Assembly (NCBI GenBank): GCA_021792315.1
Contig: JAJYUX010000023.1
Coordinates: forward strand, 1-19,310
Direction: 5' to 3'
DNA: 19,310 nt
DNA from: an archaeon
GTDB taxonomy: Archaea; Thermoproteota; Nitrososphaeria; Nitrososphaerales; CADDZS01
Shown here: positions 3,347 to 19,122 of the stretch, piece after piece
How positions within the stretch are numbered: position 1 is the first letter of the stretch
Layout of the letters: every line of letters begins with the position of its first letter
The notes under the pieces: model-generated
What the model saw: only the letters and a program-made list of their open reading frames with translations
Database searches by the model: none
Told to the model about the DNA's origin: nothing
Translations under genes and position numbers: made by a program

Positions 3347-4897
3347 ATGGCTCAATTTTCAGGTTCAAGTCAGCTTTTCGCTCCGATTGCGATCCCCTTG
3401 GCGGTGGTGGCTATAGGAATCTTTTTTGGAATTTTATTTGCACTCCCGAAGAAAAGGAGTACTGGTGCTATAGCTGCAGCGGGCTGGGCGGTCACATCAG
3501 GTGCGGCAATGTGGGCTATTGCGTTGGCGAACTATCAGCAGCTCGCAAACATCCAATTGTTCAGCGACTTTTCTCAGTTAATCCGCAGTTCAGCATACCC
3601 AAAATTGATGTTTGGCGATTTCCAAGATACAGCTGTCGCGACTCTCATTGGTCTATATGAGATAGGACTGATTCTGGGGTTTGCTGCTTTCTCAGATAGA
3701 GGGCAAGTAATCGCCGTAAGGCAGAGCGAACGAGCCATCGCAGCGAAACCCAGAGTACAAGTTGTCGCTCAAACTGAAGGACGATCCACCGATCACATTG
3801 TGATTAAGTCGAGCCAATCGATACAGAATGATGATCCTGAAGTCTTGAAGAACCAATTATATGAACAACCTTCGGAGAGTAATGTCTCTCACGTTTTGGA
3901 CAAGGATGAAAGGACAATCGTGGAACTCTTCCTCTTTGGCAATACTGCAAAGATATTTCCCCGAGTCGATGTCTCTAGGCCAGAAGGATACTATTTCGAG
4001 GGAGCTTCCTCCCTGAAGCTAGACACTAGCAGAATGAGGAGGTTGCTGGACCTTCTTGTGCGAAAGAATATCCTTAAGGCAGAAATGGAGGATAAGATGC
4101 TGGTTTGCAAAGAGTGTGGTTCGCCAAATCTTCAGTTGAGGAGCATGTGCCCAGAGTGCAAATCGATGAAATTGAGCAAGCACAATATCGTTGAGCACTT
4201 CTCCTGTGGTCTAATAGAAAGACAAGAGTCATTTCGTACACCATCAGGGGATCTGGTGTGTCCCAAGTGCAACGCGAAACTCCACCTCGTTGGTTCTGAC
4301 TATCGATACCTGTCACACATGTACGTCTGCTCAGAGTGCAACGCTCTGAACAAAGATTTGTTGCAGCAAATGAAGTGCGGTGAATGTGGAACCGTGTCGC
4401 CGGTGGGGGAAGAACGTGAACAGTATCTCTACACGTACACTTTGAACGAGAGAGCCGCATCTGAACTCGGAGATCAAATAAAGCCTGTGGAGGTATGTTC
4501 TACATATTTCAAATCTAGAGGATACGTCGTTGTTGCTCCTGCATTCGTAAGTGGCGAGTCGGGAACTCAACATATCTTCGACATGCTAGTGCTAGATTCG
4601 CGAAAGCCAACTGGAGCTGAGAATGAAGGAGTATACCAACCGCAGGGCACTGGAAGTATAGTTGTGGAAATACTCGTCTCACAAGGTCAGATCGACCTTC
4701 CAGAGATAACAAGAGTCTACGGAAAGATGTGCGATGTGGATTGTCAAACATTGATATTCGCAGTCCCTGACCTAACAGCAGATGCCAGAAATTATGCGGA
4801 TCGATTCAAAATCAGAGTGGTCGAAGGGAGATCTATTGAAGAGGTTCTGAGAAAGTCAGAGTTCACATCTTTTGCAACAGAGAACGTACGGCAGTGA
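3347..4897 (+). CDS. Membrane-anchored TackOD1-like zinc-ribbon protein with nuclease-like C-terminal domain
   Basis: A 516-aa protein. Three membrane helices (about 11-33, 42-62, 96-116) are followed by a cytosolic linker. A segment at about 185-250 resembles a winged helix (DERTIVELFLFG, then MRRLLDLLVRKNILK). A cysteine-rich block has Cys at 254/257, 268/271, 287, 305/308, 328/331 and 344/347, with IVEHFSCG and GSDYR between them. This pattern resembles TackOD1, a thaumarchaeal signal-output domain. The C-terminal alpha/beta domain (about 383-500) resembles Mrr-type restriction-endonuclease-like folds (FKSRGYVVV, FDMLVLD, IVVEILVS, FAVPDLTADARNYA). D412 and E441 fit a PD-ExK layout, but the catalytic Lys is absent (EIL), so nuclease activity is doubtful. 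The GT2 gene follows 47 bases later on the same strand, so a sensor or regulator role in polysaccharide synthesis is inferred. Domain identities come from pattern recognition only. Confidence 0.75.
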   Translation: MAQFSGSSQLFAPIAIPLAVVAIGIFFGILFALPKKRSTGAIAAAGWAVTSGAAMWAIALANYQQLANIQLFSDFSQLIRSSAYPKLMFGDFQDTAVATLIGLYEIGLILGFAAFSDRGQVIAVRQSERAIAAKPRVQVVAQTEGRSTDHIVIKSSQSIQNDDPEVLKNQLYEQPSESNVSHVLDKDERTIVELFLFGNTAKIFPRVDVSRPEGYYFEGASSLKLDTSRMRRLLDLLVRKNILKAEMEDKMLVCKECGSPNLQLRSMCPECKSMKLSKHNIVEHFSCGLIERQESFRTPSGDLVCPKCNAKLHLVGSDYRYLSHMYVCSECNALNKDLLQQMKCGECGTVSPVGEEREQYLYTYTLNERAASELGDQIKPVEVCSTYFKSRGYVVVAPAFVSGESGTQHIFDMLVLDSRKPTGAENEGVYQPQGTGSIVVEILVSQGQIDLPEITRVYGKMCDVDCQTLIFAVPDLTADARNYADRFKIRVVEGRSIEEVLRKSEFTSFATENVRQ

Positions 4898-12952: not shown

Positions 12953-13861
12953 TTAGTTTACTTCTGACATGTCATTTTTTGGATGAATAATTATGGATAT
13001 GCTACCAAGACCTTCGATCTTGTCGCTTAGAGCATTGGTCATATTCTCTCTCAACAACTCCGCTTGAGCCAGAGTCATGGTGCTATCGGCAGAGACCGAA
13101 ACGACACCAACTGCAAATCGACCAGCTTTCCTCAATCTGACATCGATCACTCTTACGGGGTATTTCTCCTCGATCAGCTTCCTGATATCTTCTACAAGCT
13201 CCGGATTGCTACAGGCATCCAAGAGAATCAATGAAGCCTCTCTAATCGATACATAAGCAACGGTGAAGATATATCCCGCGATTATCATCCCTCCTAGGGC
13301 GTCGGTATATCCGAAACCAAAGGTGGCTGCCAGAATCGCGACAAAAGCCACAAATGAGCCGGTGGCGTCCTTCACTGCATTTGCAGCGTCAGTTCTGAGA
13401 GAAAGCAAGTTGTATTTCCTTGATATTCTTCGCATCTGCAACGCTCGATAGAGAGCGATTGCACCTGCTGCAAGAGGCGTGATCAACGCGTAGGCTGCAT
13501 ATGAGAGCTCTCTGGGTTGTGCAAGTCTTAGATAAGAAAAGTATGCTAGCGCCGAAGCGCTTCCAACCATACCCACCGAAGCTATCAGTGCTCCAAGTGT
13601 TTCCACTTTGAAATATCCAAAATGAAATCTATTATCGGGAGCTCTTTTCGAGTATCTCAGACCGAGCCATACTATGAAGGATATTGTTGTATCAACCCAA
13701 GAGTCTACACCATCGGCGGTCAGACTGACGCTGCCGCTTAAAGTGCCCACTGCAATTTCAAACGCGCCAACCGCAAAGAGCGTAATTGCGGAGAGCTTTG
13801 CGATTCGCTCACCTTCGGAAAATCCTGTGGAGCGATTTTTCACTTCTTTTTGCAATACCAT
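12953..13861 (-). CDS. Cation diffusion facilitator (CDF) metal efflux transporter
   Basis: A 302-aa CDF protein that exports divalent metal from the cytoplasm in exchange for protons. Six membrane helices span about 23-205, followed by a cytosolic ferredoxin-like domain (about 215-295). The family signature HFGYFKVE is at 80-87. The transport site on helix 2 reads D53-SWV-D57. On helix 5, where zinc transporters have HxxxD, the alignment gives N161-AVK-D165, so the metal-binding His is replaced by Asn. This suggests a metal preference other than classic zinc/cadmium, for example Mn, Fe or Co, but specificity cannot be read with certainty. The gene is third in a same-strand series after ZIP- and VIT-like genes, 39 bases behind the latter. 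Export would balance uptake by the ZIP. Confidence 0.9.
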   Translation of the reverse strand: MVLQKEVKNRSTGFSEGERIAKLSAITLFAVGAFEIAVGTLSGSVSLTADGVDSWVDTTISFIVWLGLRYSKRAPDNRFHFGYFKVETLGALIASVGMVGSASALAYFSYLRLAQPRELSYAAYALITPLAAGAIALYRALQMRRISRKYNLLSLRTDAANAVKDATGSFVAFVAILAATFGFGYTDALGGMIIAGYIFTVAYVSIREASLILLDACSNPELVEDIRKLIEEKYPVRVIDVRLRKAGRFAVGVVSVSADSTMTLAQAELLRENMTNALSDKIEGLGSISIIIHPKNDMSEVN

Positions 13862-13900
13862 GGAAAACCTTCCGAAATTCCTGCGCCCCCAACTCGAGCT

Positions 13901-14608
13901 CTAGATGAAGCCCTTCAGCAAGATGCCGACCAGGTACCCTACAAAAAGCGCGACAATTCCGAAACCAAGAAACTCAGCAGCGCCGACATACCATCTACCC
14001 CCAGCGAATTTGGTTCTCAAACCACTAACTGCCAGCAGTGCGATTGTGGAGGCTGCTATTGAGGCCCAAATTGCCCTGTTAAGGTCTGTCAGTATGAGAT
14101 ACGGCAAGAGTGCGATGAATGAACCTAGAAGATGCGATAGACCGAGCACGACCGACTCTCTAATTGGATTTCCTGTCTTGCCTGGGATAAACTCAAGAAT
14201 ATGCGTGACGTGCGCCTTGAGCCACCTATCTCTATTCAATGACAGGCGATTTACGAACGAATCTGCCTCTTGTGAGGTGAAACCTTCTTCGATGTAGTAT
14301 TTTCGCATTTCACTCTTTTCGATGTCTGGCCACTTTTCAAATTCCTCATCTTCTTTCTCGATCATATGTTCATAGATCTGTTTCTGGGTCTTAGCGGAGA
14401 GAAATTGCAATGTGACAAGAGTTGCTAGACCAGTCAGCATTCCCACCACTGCAGCAATTGCCACCGTTCTTGAGCTACTAGTTGCTGAAGCCACGCCTAT
14501 GGTAAGACCCAATATTGATATCAGCCCGTGCCCGATGCCAAAGACGAGCTGTCTCACTACATCCGCGACTCTCTTTTCGCCGGAATGTGAGTGTTTGGAC
14601 TCAGGCAT
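13901..14608 (-). CDS. VIT1/CCC1-family metal transporter
   Basis: A 235-aa membrane protein of the VIT1/CCC1 (DUF125) family, which moves ferrous iron or manganese. The family core is visible: FGIGHGLISILGLTIGVA (helix 1), a second helix ending LQFLSAKTQKQ, an acidic charged segment between helices 2 and 3 (EKEDEEFEKWPDIEKSEMRKYY) that corresponds to the cytosolic metal-binding region, the NPIRESVVLGLSHLLGSFIALLPYLI region, and two final helices. Helix 1 has GHG where many members have NDG, and helix 2 has LQFLS instead of GEYLS, so two usual acidic residues are changed. It lies between ZIP and CDF genes with gaps of 50 and 39 bases, so co-transcription is likely. In prokaryotes direction and substrate vary; a role in Fe/Mn balance is the best guess. 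Confidence 0.8.
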   Translation of the reverse strand: MPESKHSHSGEKRVADVVRQLVFGIGHGLISILGLTIGVASATSSSRTVAIAAVVGMLTGLATLVTLQFLSAKTQKQIYEHMIEKEDEEFEKWPDIEKSEMRKYYIEEGFTSQEADSFVNRLSLNRDRWLKAHVTHILEFIPGKTGNPIRESVVLGLSHLLGSFIALLPYLILTDLNRAIWASIAASTIALLAVSGLRTKFAGGRWYVGAAEFLGFGIVALFVGYLVGILLKGFI

Positions 14609-14658
14609 AATTCAAACCACAATGGGAATAAGAGAAAATGTCTCGTAACTCCTTTTGC

Positions 14659-15435
14659 TCAGAGTAGCGAATCCAGCACAAGCATAATGATCAGACCCAT
14701 GATCAGAGCAAATGTTGAGGATCTCTCGCTGCCTTGTTTGTGAGTCTCCGGTATTATCTCGTCGCTTATCACAAATATCATCGCTCCTGCTGCAAAACCC
14801 ATTGCATACGGTAAGGCTGAGTGAAAGAGAGTAACAGCCCACGCGCCAATAAGAGCCATTGGCGGCTCAACAAGACCTGACACTACACCTGCAAAATAGC
14901 TCTGATGTCTTGTGTACAATCCAGTGGCTAACAACGAAAATCCCACTGCCAACCCCTCCGGGATGTTTTGTATACCGATAGCTGTCATTAAGGACAATCC
15001 TCTTGCAATATCTCCAGAGCCAAATACAACTCCCACCGCGAGTCCTTCTGGTATGTTATGCAAAGTGATAGCGATGACAAACAGCCAGATGCCTCTCAGA
15101 CGTTCCGTCCTTAATCCCTCGCGCCCGATAACAAAGTGCATTTGTGGGAGAATTCGGTCTGTAAGGCCGAGAACAAGTCCACCAAGAGCTATTCCTATCA
15201 GTACGGGAAACGGCCCGTATCCCTCAAAACCAGGGATAATAAGACTGGTAAATGCCGCTGCAAGCATCACGCCAGCACCAAAACTCAAACCCGAGTCTTG
15301 GAGCTTCTGAGATACTCTGGAGATCAAAAGGACAGGAACGACCCCAACTGCATTTAGGGCTGCCGTGAACCAGCCCCCAATGAAACCAAGGAGAGCAAGA
15401 TTTGAGCTCAGGACGGACAAGTATTCTACTTGCAA
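14659..15435 (-). CDS. ZIP-family metal transporter, GufA-like
   Basis: A 258-aa ZIP transporter, expected to bring Zn, Fe or Mn into the cytoplasm. Eight hydrophobic helices are visible. Helix 4 has HNIPEGLAVG (126-135) and helix 5 has QNIPEGLAVG (156-165), the GufA-type variant in which the second His is Gln. VEPPMAL and SDEIIPETH further on also match that subgroup. No ATG lies near the N-terminus. I chose the TTG at 15435 because TGATCC, part of the ideal SD, lies eight bases upstream; a TTG at 15462 would add nine residues. It is the first gene of the ZIP-VIT-CDF series. No metal-regulator site was recognised in the 93-base gap behind it, although it contains a short AT-rich dyad near AATTCTCATGAATT. 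Confidence 0.9.
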   Translation of the reverse strand: MQVEYLSVLSSNLALLGFIGGWFTAALNAVGVVPVLLISRVSQKLQDSGLSFGAGVMLAAAFTSLIIPGFEGYGPFPVLIGIALGGLVLGLTDRILPQMHFVIGREGLRTERLRGIWLFVIAITLHNIPEGLAVGVVFGSGDIARGLSLMTAIGIQNIPEGLAVGFSLLATGLYTRHQSYFAGVVSGLVEPPMALIGAWAVTLFHSALPYAMGFAAGAMIFVISDEIIPETHKQGSERSSTFALIMGLIIMLVLDSLL

Positions 15436-15555
15436 TCCTTGTGGGATCAGTCTCCTTTGCAAATGTCGGTTCTTACAATTCTCATGAATTCTTTCCTGAT
15501 AGTATCTTGAGAACAGATCGAATTTGGTACGAACAAAATCCCCAATGTCGTGGCC

Positions 15556-16882: not shown

Positions 16883-17866
16883 TCAGTGACGAACTCTCAA
16901 TTCTAGGCAGGCAAGTGTCGCATTCGATTTGAAACCAGTTCCGTATTTTGCGCTTAACTCTTTCATCTTGTCTGTTATCTCCAATCTCTCATGATCTCGA
17001 GCAAATCTAGCCTGAAAATTCTCGATCATTGTGGGATGGAGTCTCAATCGATTGATTTTGCCATCAGAGACATCGACCACATAGACACAAGATTGATCAT
17101 TTCTCTCAGTGCGATCAACTGCATAATCATCGATGAAGTTCCCTGCGCAGTAAAGAATCAGGTGCTGATTGTAGATCTCAATACCTCTGAAGACATGGCC
17201 AGAATGTCCGAACACAATGTCCGCCCCTGCATCTATCATGGCATGGGCGAAGGGAACATGCTCTGCGGGAGGCTCGTAGCCCCAGTTCGGTCCCCAGTGA
17301 GCCGACACAACTAGCAAATCTACTTCTCTCTTGGTTATCTCGATGAGGTCAAGGAGTTCTTTCGCACGCGCGTCGTTCAAATCTATTGGGACATAGAAGA
17401 TTCCAGGCCGGTGTTTGGAAGATTCCCACTCGGGCTGGTTGTCTGTGAAAGCTATCATTCCCACTTTCTTTCCAAAGATATTCAAGACCGCTGGCCGCTT
17501 AGCCTCTGCGAAACCAAGGCCAGCTCCGGCATGTTCTATGCCAGATTTGTCCAGAACTTTTAGCGTATCTTCAAGTGCGTCAATACCAAAGTCTAGGACA
17601 TGATTGTTCGCAAGAGACACCAGATTAATGCCTGCTTCACTCAGTACTCGAACATTCTTGGGGTCTGAGCGAAAGTGAAATTCCTTCGGAGTAACTGTCC
17701 AAGGCTCCCCCCTGTTTGATACGGCACACTCCAAGTTGCATATGCCAAAATCCGTATTACTGAACAGGGATAAAGTATCACCCCATGGATAGCTTGCGTT
17801 CCTTCGCTTCAACGATTCATTGACAAGTCGGCCAAGCATTACGTCTCCGACAAGTGCAAGTTTCAA
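16883..17866 (-). CDS. CapA-family metallophosphoesterase-like protein
   Basis: A 327-aa CapA-like protein (PGA_cap domain, calcineurin-like fold). Motifs in order are GDVMLGR (7-13), CNLECAVS (43-50), SLANNHVLDFG (84-94), SAHWGPNWGYEP, GADIVFGHSGH and YCAGNFIDD, all family hallmarks with the metal-binding Asp, Asn and His residues kept. Bacterial CapA takes part in poly-gamma-glutamate capsule synthesis, but many relatives occur without capBC, as appears to be the case here, and their substrates are unknown. There is no signal peptide or anchor, so it is probably cytosolic. The start is a TTG at 17866; an in-frame stop upstream and the conserved MKLALVGDVM opening support it. It is last in a run with the mini zinc finger (39-base gap) and the CBS gene. 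Confidence 0.9.
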   Translation of the reverse strand: MKLALVGDVMLGRLVNESLKRRNASYPWGDTLSLFSNTDFGICNLECAVSNRGEPWTVTPKEFHFRSDPKNVRVLSEAGINLVSLANNHVLDFGIDALEDTLKVLDKSGIEHAGAGLGFAEAKRPAVLNIFGKKVGMIAFTDNQPEWESSKHRPGIFYVPIDLNDARAKELLDLIEITKREVDLLVVSAHWGPNWGYEPPAEHVPFAHAMIDAGADIVFGHSGHVFRGIEIYNQHLILYCAGNFIDDYAVDRTERNDQSCVYVVDVSDGKINRLRLHPTMIENFQARFARDHERLEITDKMKELSAKYGTGFKSNATLACLELRVRH

Positions 17867-17905
17867 GTCTTGCTTACACTCATTTCAACTCGATCAAAGC
17901 TCGCA

Positions 17906-18040
17906 CTAATGAGCGTGCTCTTCTTCTTCGTGTGATTCTTCACAAGCAATTGCTTGCGTGTAAGTGGCGAAGTAAGAGTGACATTCTTCGCATTCGTATC
18001 TAACCACGTGTGTTTTTCTGTCCATGATTTCAATCTGCAT
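17906..18040 (-). CDS. 44-aa mini zinc-finger protein (C2HC, TFIIIA-like spacing)
   Basis: A 44-codon gene that starts 12 bases after the stop of the CBS gene and ends 39 bases before the CapA-like gene. The core reads YECEECHSYFATYTQ. The ligands C17, C20, C33 and H37 give C-x2-C-x12-C-x3-H, the exact spacing of classical C2H2 fingers with Cys in place of the first His. F24 sits at the conserved Phe position and A30 at the Leu position. A very acidic, His-containing tail follows (EESHEEEEHAH), which could bind metal too. An in-frame TAA immediately precedes the ATG, which fixes the longest start; M6 at 18025 is an alternative. No SD is obvious, so it may be translated by coupling to the CBS gene. 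A competing 70-codon frame over this stretch has no recognisable features. Function is unknown. Confidence 0.6.
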   Translation of the reverse strand: MQIEIMDRKTHVVRYECEECHSYFATYTQAIACEESHEEEEHAH

Positions 18041-18052
18041 TTAGAATGCACT

Positions 18053-18493
18053 TCAGGCCAATTCATGAGGTACAAATCTTGCCTTAATCAGTTCATGTAG
18101 ATAGCCCACCATTATCGGTTCGGTTCTGATTATGTCTGTCGAGGTGATTATCCCGACCAATCTCCCATCTTCGAGTACTGGCAGTTTTGATACCTTCTTA
18201 GACGACATAAGTCGAGACGCTTCTTCCAATGTCACCTCCTTACCAACAGTCGTCACATTCTTGGACATGACCTTCTCCACTGGAGTCGTCTTTGGGTCTA
18301 GTTCACGTAGTACACCCTTCCTCAATACGTCACCCTTCGTCACGATGCCGACCACTTCATCGTCTTGCAGCACTACAATGCAGCCCACATCAGATTCGAT
18401 CATCTTGTAAACCGCTTCGAACACGGTCGCTGACCTGTCAACGCAAACTACGCTTTTCATCATTACGTTAGAGACTTTGACTACCGCGCTCAT
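18053..18493 (-). CDS. Paired CBS-domain protein
   Basis: A 146-aa protein made of one CBS pair (Bateman module). CBS1 is about 10-60 (VFEAVYKMIESDVGCIVVL, VVGIVTKGDVLRKG) and CBS2 about 74-124 (VMSKNVTTV, EEASRLMSSKKVSKLPVL, LVGIITSTDII). Both end in the usual G-I-[IV]-T-x-x-D nucleotide-contact pattern. Such modules bind AMP, ATP or SAM and act as cytosolic energy or ligand sensors, usually by contacting a partner protein. No catalytic domain is present. CAGGAG seven bases before the ATG is a good SD. The neighbours are the thiamine-binding gene 63 bases upstream and a mini zinc finger 12 bases downstream; the finger is the closest candidate partner, by position only. Confidence 0.92.
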   Translation of the reverse strand: MSAVVKVSNVMMKSVVCVDRSATVFEAVYKMIESDVGCIVVLQDDEVVGIVTKGDVLRKGVLRELDPKTTPVEKVMSKNVTTVGKEVTLEEASRLMSSKKVSKLPVLEDGRLVGIITSTDIIRTEPIMVGYLHELIKARFVPHELA

Positions 18494-18556: not shown

Positions 18557-18859
18557 TTACCGCGAAACCGGCTTTGCTATTGTGAGAGGCTTGTCTCTTC
18601 GATCATCAATCTTGAGAATGGTTTCGACTCTCTTTTCACCGAAACCTAGAACCGCTTCATGAGCTACCTTAGCGGCCTGCAGAATAGTATCCAGTCTCTC
18701 GCTTTCAAGAAGTGTGCCCATCGCGTTGACTTCATATTTCAGACCTTCGATTCTTTTGATGGCATTAATCGCTTCATCGATCTGCCTTCTGATGCTTGTT
18801 GTTCCGGAACCAATCGGATTGATACTTAGCTCGGCTATTATTACACTCTTTGAAGACAT
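18557..18859 (-). CDS. MTH1187-family thiamine-binding protein
   Basis: A small ferredoxin-like protein of the MTH1187/YqgV (DUF77) family, 100 aa as called. Family segments are all present: VIIAELSINPIGSGTTSIRR near the N-terminus, GLKYEVNAMGTLLE in the middle and KRVETILKIDDRRDKPLT near the end. Members bind thiamine or related pyrimidines and are thought to act as cytosolic carriers or sensors. I chose the ATG at 18859 because GGTGA lies eight bases upstream. An ATG at 18874 would add five residues, and TTTATC about 26 bases before it would suit a leaderless start. A longer in-frame extension further upstream has no family similarity. It heads the series thiamine-binding, CBS, mini zinc finger, CapA-like. 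Confidence 0.92.
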   Translation of the reverse strand: MSSKSVIIAELSINPIGSGTTSIRRQIDEAINAIKRIEGLKYEVNAMGTLLESERLDTILQAAKVAHEAVLGFGEKRVETILKIDDRRDKPLTIAKPVSR

Positions 18860-18895: not shown

Positions 18896-18932
18896 TTGAT
18901 AAATGGAGCACATGATTATCAAACATGATAAT
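18896..18932 (-). promoter_or_regulatory. TATA-like box and dyad upstream of the thiamine-binding gene
   Basis: CATTTATCAA (minus strand, 18905-18896) is a TATA-like element about 26 bases before the ATG at 18874. Just upstream, ATTATCA (18915-18921) and TGATAAT (18926-18932) are exact 7-bp complements around four bases. A dyad of this size next to the BRE/TATA region is a typical place for a repressor or activator site. A thiamine-linked role is only a guess. Confidence 0.4.
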
Positions 18933-18984: not shown

Positions 18985-19122
18985 TCAGGACTCGTCCTGT
19001 GCTACAAACACGCCAGGATGCTCTTGCTTGATGTGTTGAGCCAAGGCAAATGCATTTCTGAACCTTTTGCCGCATACCGGACATGTGCGACTTCTTCTAT
19101 CGTATGGGGTTGTCACTGTCAT
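18985..19122 (-). CDS. 45-aa classical C2H2 zinc-finger protein
   Basis: A 45-codon gene encoding one textbook TFIIIA-type finger: CPVCGKRFRNAFALAQHIKQ followed by EH, that is C14-x2-C17-x3-F21-x5-L27-x2-H30-x4-H35, with every structural position filled. The N-terminus before the finger is basic (YDRRSRT) and a short acidic tail ends the protein. An in-frame stop lies five codons before the ATG, so the protein cannot be much longer; a GTG two codons downstream is the only other early start. No SD or TATA is clear. It is followed, after 125 bases, by the thiamine-binding gene on the same strand. It may bind nucleic acid or another protein; single fingers usually bind DNA weakly without basic flanks or a partner. 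The function is unknown. Confidence 0.75.
   Translation of the reverse strand: MTVTTPYDRRSRTCPVCGKRFRNAFALAQHIKQEHPGVFVAQDES

Follow-up and report, generated by a model that had tools for sequence, protein, structure and literature searches.

Within the window analysed here, the 19,310-nucleotide stretch of the archaeal contig JAJYUX010000023.1, we examined a very short minus-strand gene at 17906..18040, which homologues, column counts and a predicted beta-beta-alpha model identify as a 44-residue acidic mini zinc-finger gene. Its translation is MQIEIMDRKTHVVRYECEECHSYFATYTQAIACEESHEEEEHAH, followed by a stop codon. The four putative zinc ligands follow the spacing C17-x2-C20-x12-C33-x3-H37 (codons at 17990-17992, 17981-17983, 17942-17944, and 17930-17932), F24 occupies the classical aromatic position, and two histidines, H42 (17915-17917) and H44 (17909-17911), lie in the tail. 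Directly upstream, on the same strand, a gene at 18053..18493 encodes a 146-residue protein with two cystathionine beta-synthase (CBS) domains (Pfam CBS, E 4.5e-29); its stop codon precedes the finger ATG by just 12 bases (18041-18052). Downstream follows a PGA_cap (CapA-like) gene (16883..17866, minus strand; PF09587, E 6e-78), whose TTG start lies 39 nucleotides after the finger stop. The initial annotation of this DNA had proposed the C2HC spacing with a Phe at the conserved position, the 12-base distance from the CBS gene, and the setting between CBS and CapA-like genes, all of which were borne out by the translation, the coordinates, and the Pfam matches.

A frame this short, for which by eye no strong ribosome-binding site is apparent, might be a chance open frame in the gap between the CBS and CapA-like genes. 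The exact C-x2-C-x12-C-x3-H motif, counted in frames of at least 30 residues from the first ATG, occurred once in the window and in none of 200 dinucleotide-preserving shuffles, whereas a looser pattern of two Cys followed by two Cys/His occurred twice in the window and in 9 of the 200 shuffles. Together with the 14 homologues and their invariant columns described below, which in effect refute it, this leaves a chance origin hardly credible. A competing 70-codon frame (17863..18075, minus strand, TTG start) was searched with Pfam only and gave no match over cut-off (best TAF8_C, E 0.075); since, moreover, the overlapping finger frame is the one with homologues, we judge the 70-codon frame to be no gene.

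The finger is conserved. A single-sequence protein search returned six homologues (E 6.6e-17 to 7.8e-12), and two further rounds with growing alignments brought the number to 14 among 43 candidates (limit E 10), all at 1.4e-13 or below. In the last profile round, they ranged from E 3.2e-22 to 1.4e-13, with 12 of the 14 already in the profile and two (P0014 and P0015) new. The homologues are 44 to 57 residues long, and the protein collection lists those of equal length as predicted proteins. Across all 15 sequences (the window protein plus its homologues), pairwise identities were 48 to 89%, and eight positions were invariant (D7, E18, C20, E34, H37, E41, H42, and H44), while position 24 was aromatic throughout (Y in 10, F in 5). 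All four ligands were present in 13 of the 15 sequences; the initial annotation had suggested ligand conservation as a check and had named a lack of homologues with conserved ligands as an outcome that would speak against the gene, an outcome that the protein searches did not bear out. The tail E41-H42-x-H44 was kept in every sequence and hence matches or exceeds the full ligand set in conservation, such that the acidic, histidine-rich end, which had been singled out early as unusual for a DNA-binding finger, proves to be a genuine family feature that speaks against DNA binding. So does the net charge, which lay between -8 and -13 in all 15 members. Taken together, the homologues, the invariant columns, and the acidity argue strongly that the frame codes for a protein and that this protein is no plain DNA-binding finger: As judged from its sequence relatives, the 44-residue mini-protein is a genuine, conserved small protein.

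An AlphaFold model of the finger adopts a beta-beta-alpha arrangement (strands 2-6 and 13-17, helix 27-42; mean predicted local distance difference test score of 88), i.e., the predicted fold is that of zf-C2H2 fingers. The first eight rows of a Foldseek search with this model were all Kaiso C2H2 fingers, at E 0.57 and above. Established family models did not capture the protein. No Pfam or NCBIfam model was seen to reach its cut-off in the 15 sequences, where scores and cut-offs were compared for the window protein and five homologues, and the remaining homologues, for which the best E-value per family was taken, gave 7.5e-4 or worse (Pfam) and 0.0054 or worse (NCBIfam). For zf-C2H2 (PF00096), the window protein had no match at E <= 1, and two of the 15 sequences matched below the cut-off (best E 0.084, 13.8 bits versus 25.2); the third ligand, a His in the zf-C2H2 set C-x2-4-C-x12-H-x3-5-H, is Cys in 14 members and Tyr in one. 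DUF7128 (PF23447) was matched at E <= 1 by nine of the 15 sequences, led by P0014 (19.8 bits versus a cut-off of 25.7), and not by the window protein in the same Pfam scan.

We obtained a clearer placement at the profile level. The DUF7128 profile matched 65 of 200 genomes from the class of G001, the genome with the closest CBS relative (see below), at E <= 0.01, four of them over cut-off, and 3 of 14 control genomes (Escherichia coli, M. jannaschii, and H. volcanii), one over cut-off. From 30 loci found in this way, we picked by eye nine mini-fingers sharing C-x2-C-x12-C-x3-C and added a tenth (L025); hhalign aligned the finger family to these eye-picked rows (alignment A4) with a probability of 92.8% over 27 columns, and one of the rows, L066, itself scored 30.1 bits against PF23447. 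The closest group that we found for the finger family is accordingly the DUF7128-like mini-fingers of the class Nitrososphaeria, and from this profile-profile match, we conclude that the family is a diverged branch of that group, with the direction of change being our reading of the alignments. The term DUF7128 was not found in papers. In two genomes (L025 and L066), the DUF7128-like mini-finger adjoins a trehalose-phosphatase gene (PF02358, E 9.4e-49 and 1.7e-47).

How might such a protein work? In the explanation that we favour, C17, C20, C33, and H37 would hold zinc in a short beta-beta-alpha finger, whose strongly acidic helix ends in the invariant E-H-x-H. Rather than reading DNA, the finger would act as a small protein-contact adaptor, with the acidic helix docking on a basic partner, and H42 and H44 of the tail might contribute another metal site of lower strength. 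A candidate for this partner is the product of the CBS gene immediately upstream, with which the finger is presumably co-transcribed. This CBS protein carries the stretches GIVTKGD and GIITSTD, which we take to resemble the G-h-x-T-x-x-D motif of adenylate-binding CBS pairs; with such a partner, adenylate level (through CBS) and metal (through the finger) could be read together. We put the whole statement, a zinc-held one-domain micro-protein that works by protein contact and perhaps has the CBS protein as its partner, at a probability of about 50%, with most of the doubt falling on the partner.

If the two proteins belong together, their genes might be expected to travel together; the initial annotation, in proposing a possible CBS-finger pair, had named linkage to CBS genes as a check. 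The closest relatives of the CBS protein that we found were 64, 57, 56, and 54% identical. Its best genome matches came from G001 (the metagenome-assembled genome "bacterium isolate clean1828", 64%) and G002 (a Nitrososphaerales archaeon, 54%), which fall in one family, of which nine genomes were searched; the sample from the same class also included Nitrosotalea devanaterra (G004). Searches of whole genomes with the finger profile, in overlapping samples of 4, 400, 61, 300, 4, 300, 9, and 46 genomes, yielded no clean finger copy, and six genomes had matches at E <= 0.001. Two of the six have the match beside a CBS frame. In G303, a decayed copy (profile positions 2-44, E 4.5e-5 for the genome, 25 bits, one internal stop) starts ~23 nucleotides past the 3' end of a gene that encodes four CBS stretches; it has kept the first Cys and lost the second and third Cys as well as H37. 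In G320, a C2H2-like open frame starts 21 nucleotides after a two-stretch CBS frame, with ATGs 72 and 102 nucleotides from the stop. The other four matches are of a different kind: DUF7128-like in G281, C2H2 in G141, partial and inside a 338-residue frame in G317, and partial with a stop in G474. Looser limits added weak partial matches (in one sample, 11 of 46 genomes at E <= 0.05). No locus was confirmed in a finger scan of genome contigs or with a wider finger profile in viral contigs, and neither the window protein, searched against plasmids, nor P0014, searched against phages, had a tblastn match.

We also approached the question from the CBS side, by surveying 139 CBS frames (137 distinct sequences) at 112 loci including the window, 136 of which had 250 nucleotides of downstream sequence; some loci represent one contig (L001/L031 and L003/L150), 60 loci were selected from the listed places of one CBS search, not from all places, and L026 (the G320 locus) and L028 entered the survey because of their finger. 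By pattern search, four of the 136 CBS frames are followed by a zinc-motif frame on their own strand (the window, L121, L137, and L141), two have one on the opposite strand (L142 and L165), and none in the survey is preceded by one on its own strand. The finger profile picked out three loci, the window, L026, and L028; L165 came up only at E 0.27. In L121, L137, and L141, which come from three genomes, the frame 3' of the CBS gene is another small zinc protein (KCSDCGR...CQVC..IICVNCMWYNR), with its first Cys 50 to 66 nucleotides from the CBS end. As a further observation, the C-terminus of the CBS-pair protein of L026 weakly resembles a B-box (E 0.0031, below cut-off).

Several of these results weigh against the favoured explanation, mostly against the partner. 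Among the 136 CBS frames, a clean finger copy follows that of the window only, the four closest CBS relatives that we found have no neighbouring finger, and the finger profile had no match at E <= 0.001 in the nine genomes of G001's family (best 0.0075). As to the zinc site and the fold, two of the 15 sequences each lack one ligand (C33Y in P0010 and C17F in P0011), no Foldseek row reached E <= 0.001 for the finger model, and chains of an RNA polymerase II subunit and of the Pin1 WW domain were among the first 50 rows; moreover, several C(P)xCG proteins of Haloferax bind no zinc, according to PMC11241148. On the strength of the survey, we reject a general CBS-finger linkage. What stands of the proposed pair is the shared strand, the 12-nucleotide gap, the decayed copy after the CBS gene of G303, and the C2H2-like frame after that of G320, which weakly support a CBS pairing of the finger, whereas the expected recurrence beside related CBS genes did not hold.

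The surroundings of the two genes contain further features of interest. All twelve frames counted as genes between 9822 and 19122 lie on the minus strand. Upstream of the CBS gene is a gene of the thiamine-binding-protein family (18557..18859, minus strand; PF01910, E 2.2e-23), and the same gene run is headed by a second mini zinc finger of 45 residues (18985..19122, minus strand), a classical C2H2 type (PF00096, E 3e-06, 27.8 bits at a cut-off of 25.2), such that the thiamine-binding-family and CBS genes have a mini-finger on either side. A perfect inverted repeat, ATTATCA-N4-TGATAAT, at 18915-18932, with further half-site pairing at 18896-18902, lies ~55 to 75 bases upstream of the thiamine-binding-family gene start, beside what is by eye a TATA-like stretch. 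It looks like an operator; the window holds no second perfect copy, and with up to three mismatches, there are three matches in the window versus 1.17 expected. Downstream of the finger, at 12953-15462 on the minus strand, the genes for ZIP (14659-15462), VIT1 (13901-14608), and a cation efflux protein (12953-13861) form a compact three-gene metal-transport run. Farther away, a protein with the thaumarchaeal output domain TackOD1 and a double-zinc-ribbon match is encoded near glycosyltransferase genes (3347-4897, plus strand). The window also holds a TFIIB gene, whose product had a match in 13 of 13 genomes (best rows ~40%), and a gene for a radical SAM protein, with a match in 3 of 41 genomes (best 48% over part of its length); neither comparison brought out a close genome, and the DNA most likely stems from an unsampled lineage that belongs to Nitrososphaeria or stands near it. 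At a separate locus in G001 (L020, 994-1845, plus strand), we noted a 283-residue protein whose N-terminal half looks hydrophobic by eye and whose C-terminus carries four C2H2 fingers in tandem (PF13912, E 1e-19), apparently a membrane-bound multi-finger protein.

The metal-transport genes and the E-H-x-H tail together suggest the main rival to the favoured explanation, namely a metal-handling micro-protein (a zinc buffer, chaperone, or sensor) that would keep a structural zinc in its C3H site and a labile one at the tail, serving the transporters nearby. The invariance of the tail in all 15 sequences fits this view, as does the location of the cluster, 2.4 to 5 kb away on the same strand; yet two other genes and a 370-nucleotide gap intervene between cluster and finger, and the operator-like repeat, searched with up to three mismatches, has no match next to the cluster. 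We regard this function as possible, though less than likely. A nucleic acid-binding regulator in the manner of Brz of Halobacterium would share the size class and the predicted C2H2-like fold of our finger, which also adjoins genes open to its regulation. As described in PMC2253796, the small zinc-finger protein Brz increases the transcript level of bop, the gene next to its own, and point mutants of its Cys/His residues have strongly reduced bop mRNA. The net charge of -8 to -13, however, with a Glu-rich helix at the very place where DNA would be contacted, makes this role unlikely.

A link to the ribosome could be drawn through both proteins. The CBS portion of the archaeal hibernation factor HibA is a relative of our CBS protein (chain 9sr9_H, E 6.1e-13), and a C2H2 mini-protein found on the Thermococcus 70S ribosome (6skg chain Bo) is similar to the finger; archaeal ribosome proteins are treated in PMC10516650. 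The HibA entries were identified via the data section of PMC13324472, and in that source, the CBS-module hibernation factors (HibA, Dri, and CM-1 to CM-6) have a module of two CBS tandems. The 146 residues of the window protein hold one CBS pair, and its best match in the PDB is a "CBS domain-containing protein" (9znf_5, E 5.5e-22). We consider a ribosome-linked factor quite improbable.

Archaea contain many one-domain zinc micro-proteins, and to our knowledge, a partner or target has been established for few of them. The finger adds one family to this large, little-understood set, and its signature is firm: a C3H site and an invariant acidic E-H-x-H end, with no Pfam or NCBIfam match seen over cut-off. 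Because the adjoining candidate partner is of an adenylate-sensing class, a cheap two-protein test offers itself for whether mini-fingers serve as protein adaptors or as gene regulators, and if the CBS pairing is true, energy and metal sensing would be connected through it. Of 16 Haloferax mutants each deleted for a single mini-finger gene, 12 showed a phenotype under one or more conditions (PMC6562870).

Among known systems, the classical TFIIIA-type C2H2 finger shares with the window protein the spacing, the aromatic residue, and the predicted beta-beta-alpha fold, and differs from it in that the window protein has a Cys as third ligand and an acidic helix. The archaeal C(P)xCG micro-proteins (Brz, HVO_0758, and HVO_2753; PMC2253796 and PMC11241148) are alike by description in being very small, with a predicted zinc site and no other domain. 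The CPxCG-related class, as defined in PMC2253796, comprises proteins of <100 residues with two paired Cys/His patterns 7 to 40 apart, one of them CPxCG, CxxCG, or CPxCx. The window protein, with CEECH ... CEESH, strictly falls outside it, while the 5 of 15 family members with a Gly after the second Cys (CEECG) would fall within. We place the finger among the one-domain zinc proteins of archaea, where it forms a new family. Closer are the DUF7128-like mini-fingers of Nitrososphaeria (L066, L025, and L072), likewise short frames with a stretch before C-x2-C-x12-C-x3, where the core of L066 (YECEECH..Y.....A..CE) is much like that of our family; these have, however, a Cys as fourth ligand, a fifth Cys, and a C-S-x-E-I-T end, whereas the finger family has its own H37 and acidic E-H-x-H tail.

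For the CBS side, a literature search found no paper titled on Ta0289 or on CBS-Zn-ribbon proteins. A PDB relative of the CBS protein, 3ghd, is described as "a cystathionine beta-synthase domain protein fused to a Zn-ribbon-like domain," which shows that CBS pairs with an adjoining zinc module already exist in fused form; Ta0289 (1pvm/2qh1) is presumably another. The finger and the CBS protein could then represent such an archaeal CBS-plus-zinc-module protein split over two genes. As a dual sensor, the two would read adenylates through the CBS pair and metal through the E-H-x-H finger, and the acidic helix, by docking on the CBS dimer, would switch a target common to both, perhaps the ribosome; we hold this extended picture to be doubtful. 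In both systems, a CBS pair and a small zinc module stand side by side, in 3ghd within one chain and with a ribbon, and in the window as a finger in a gene of its own, set apart from the CBS gene by a stop codon and 12 nucleotides.
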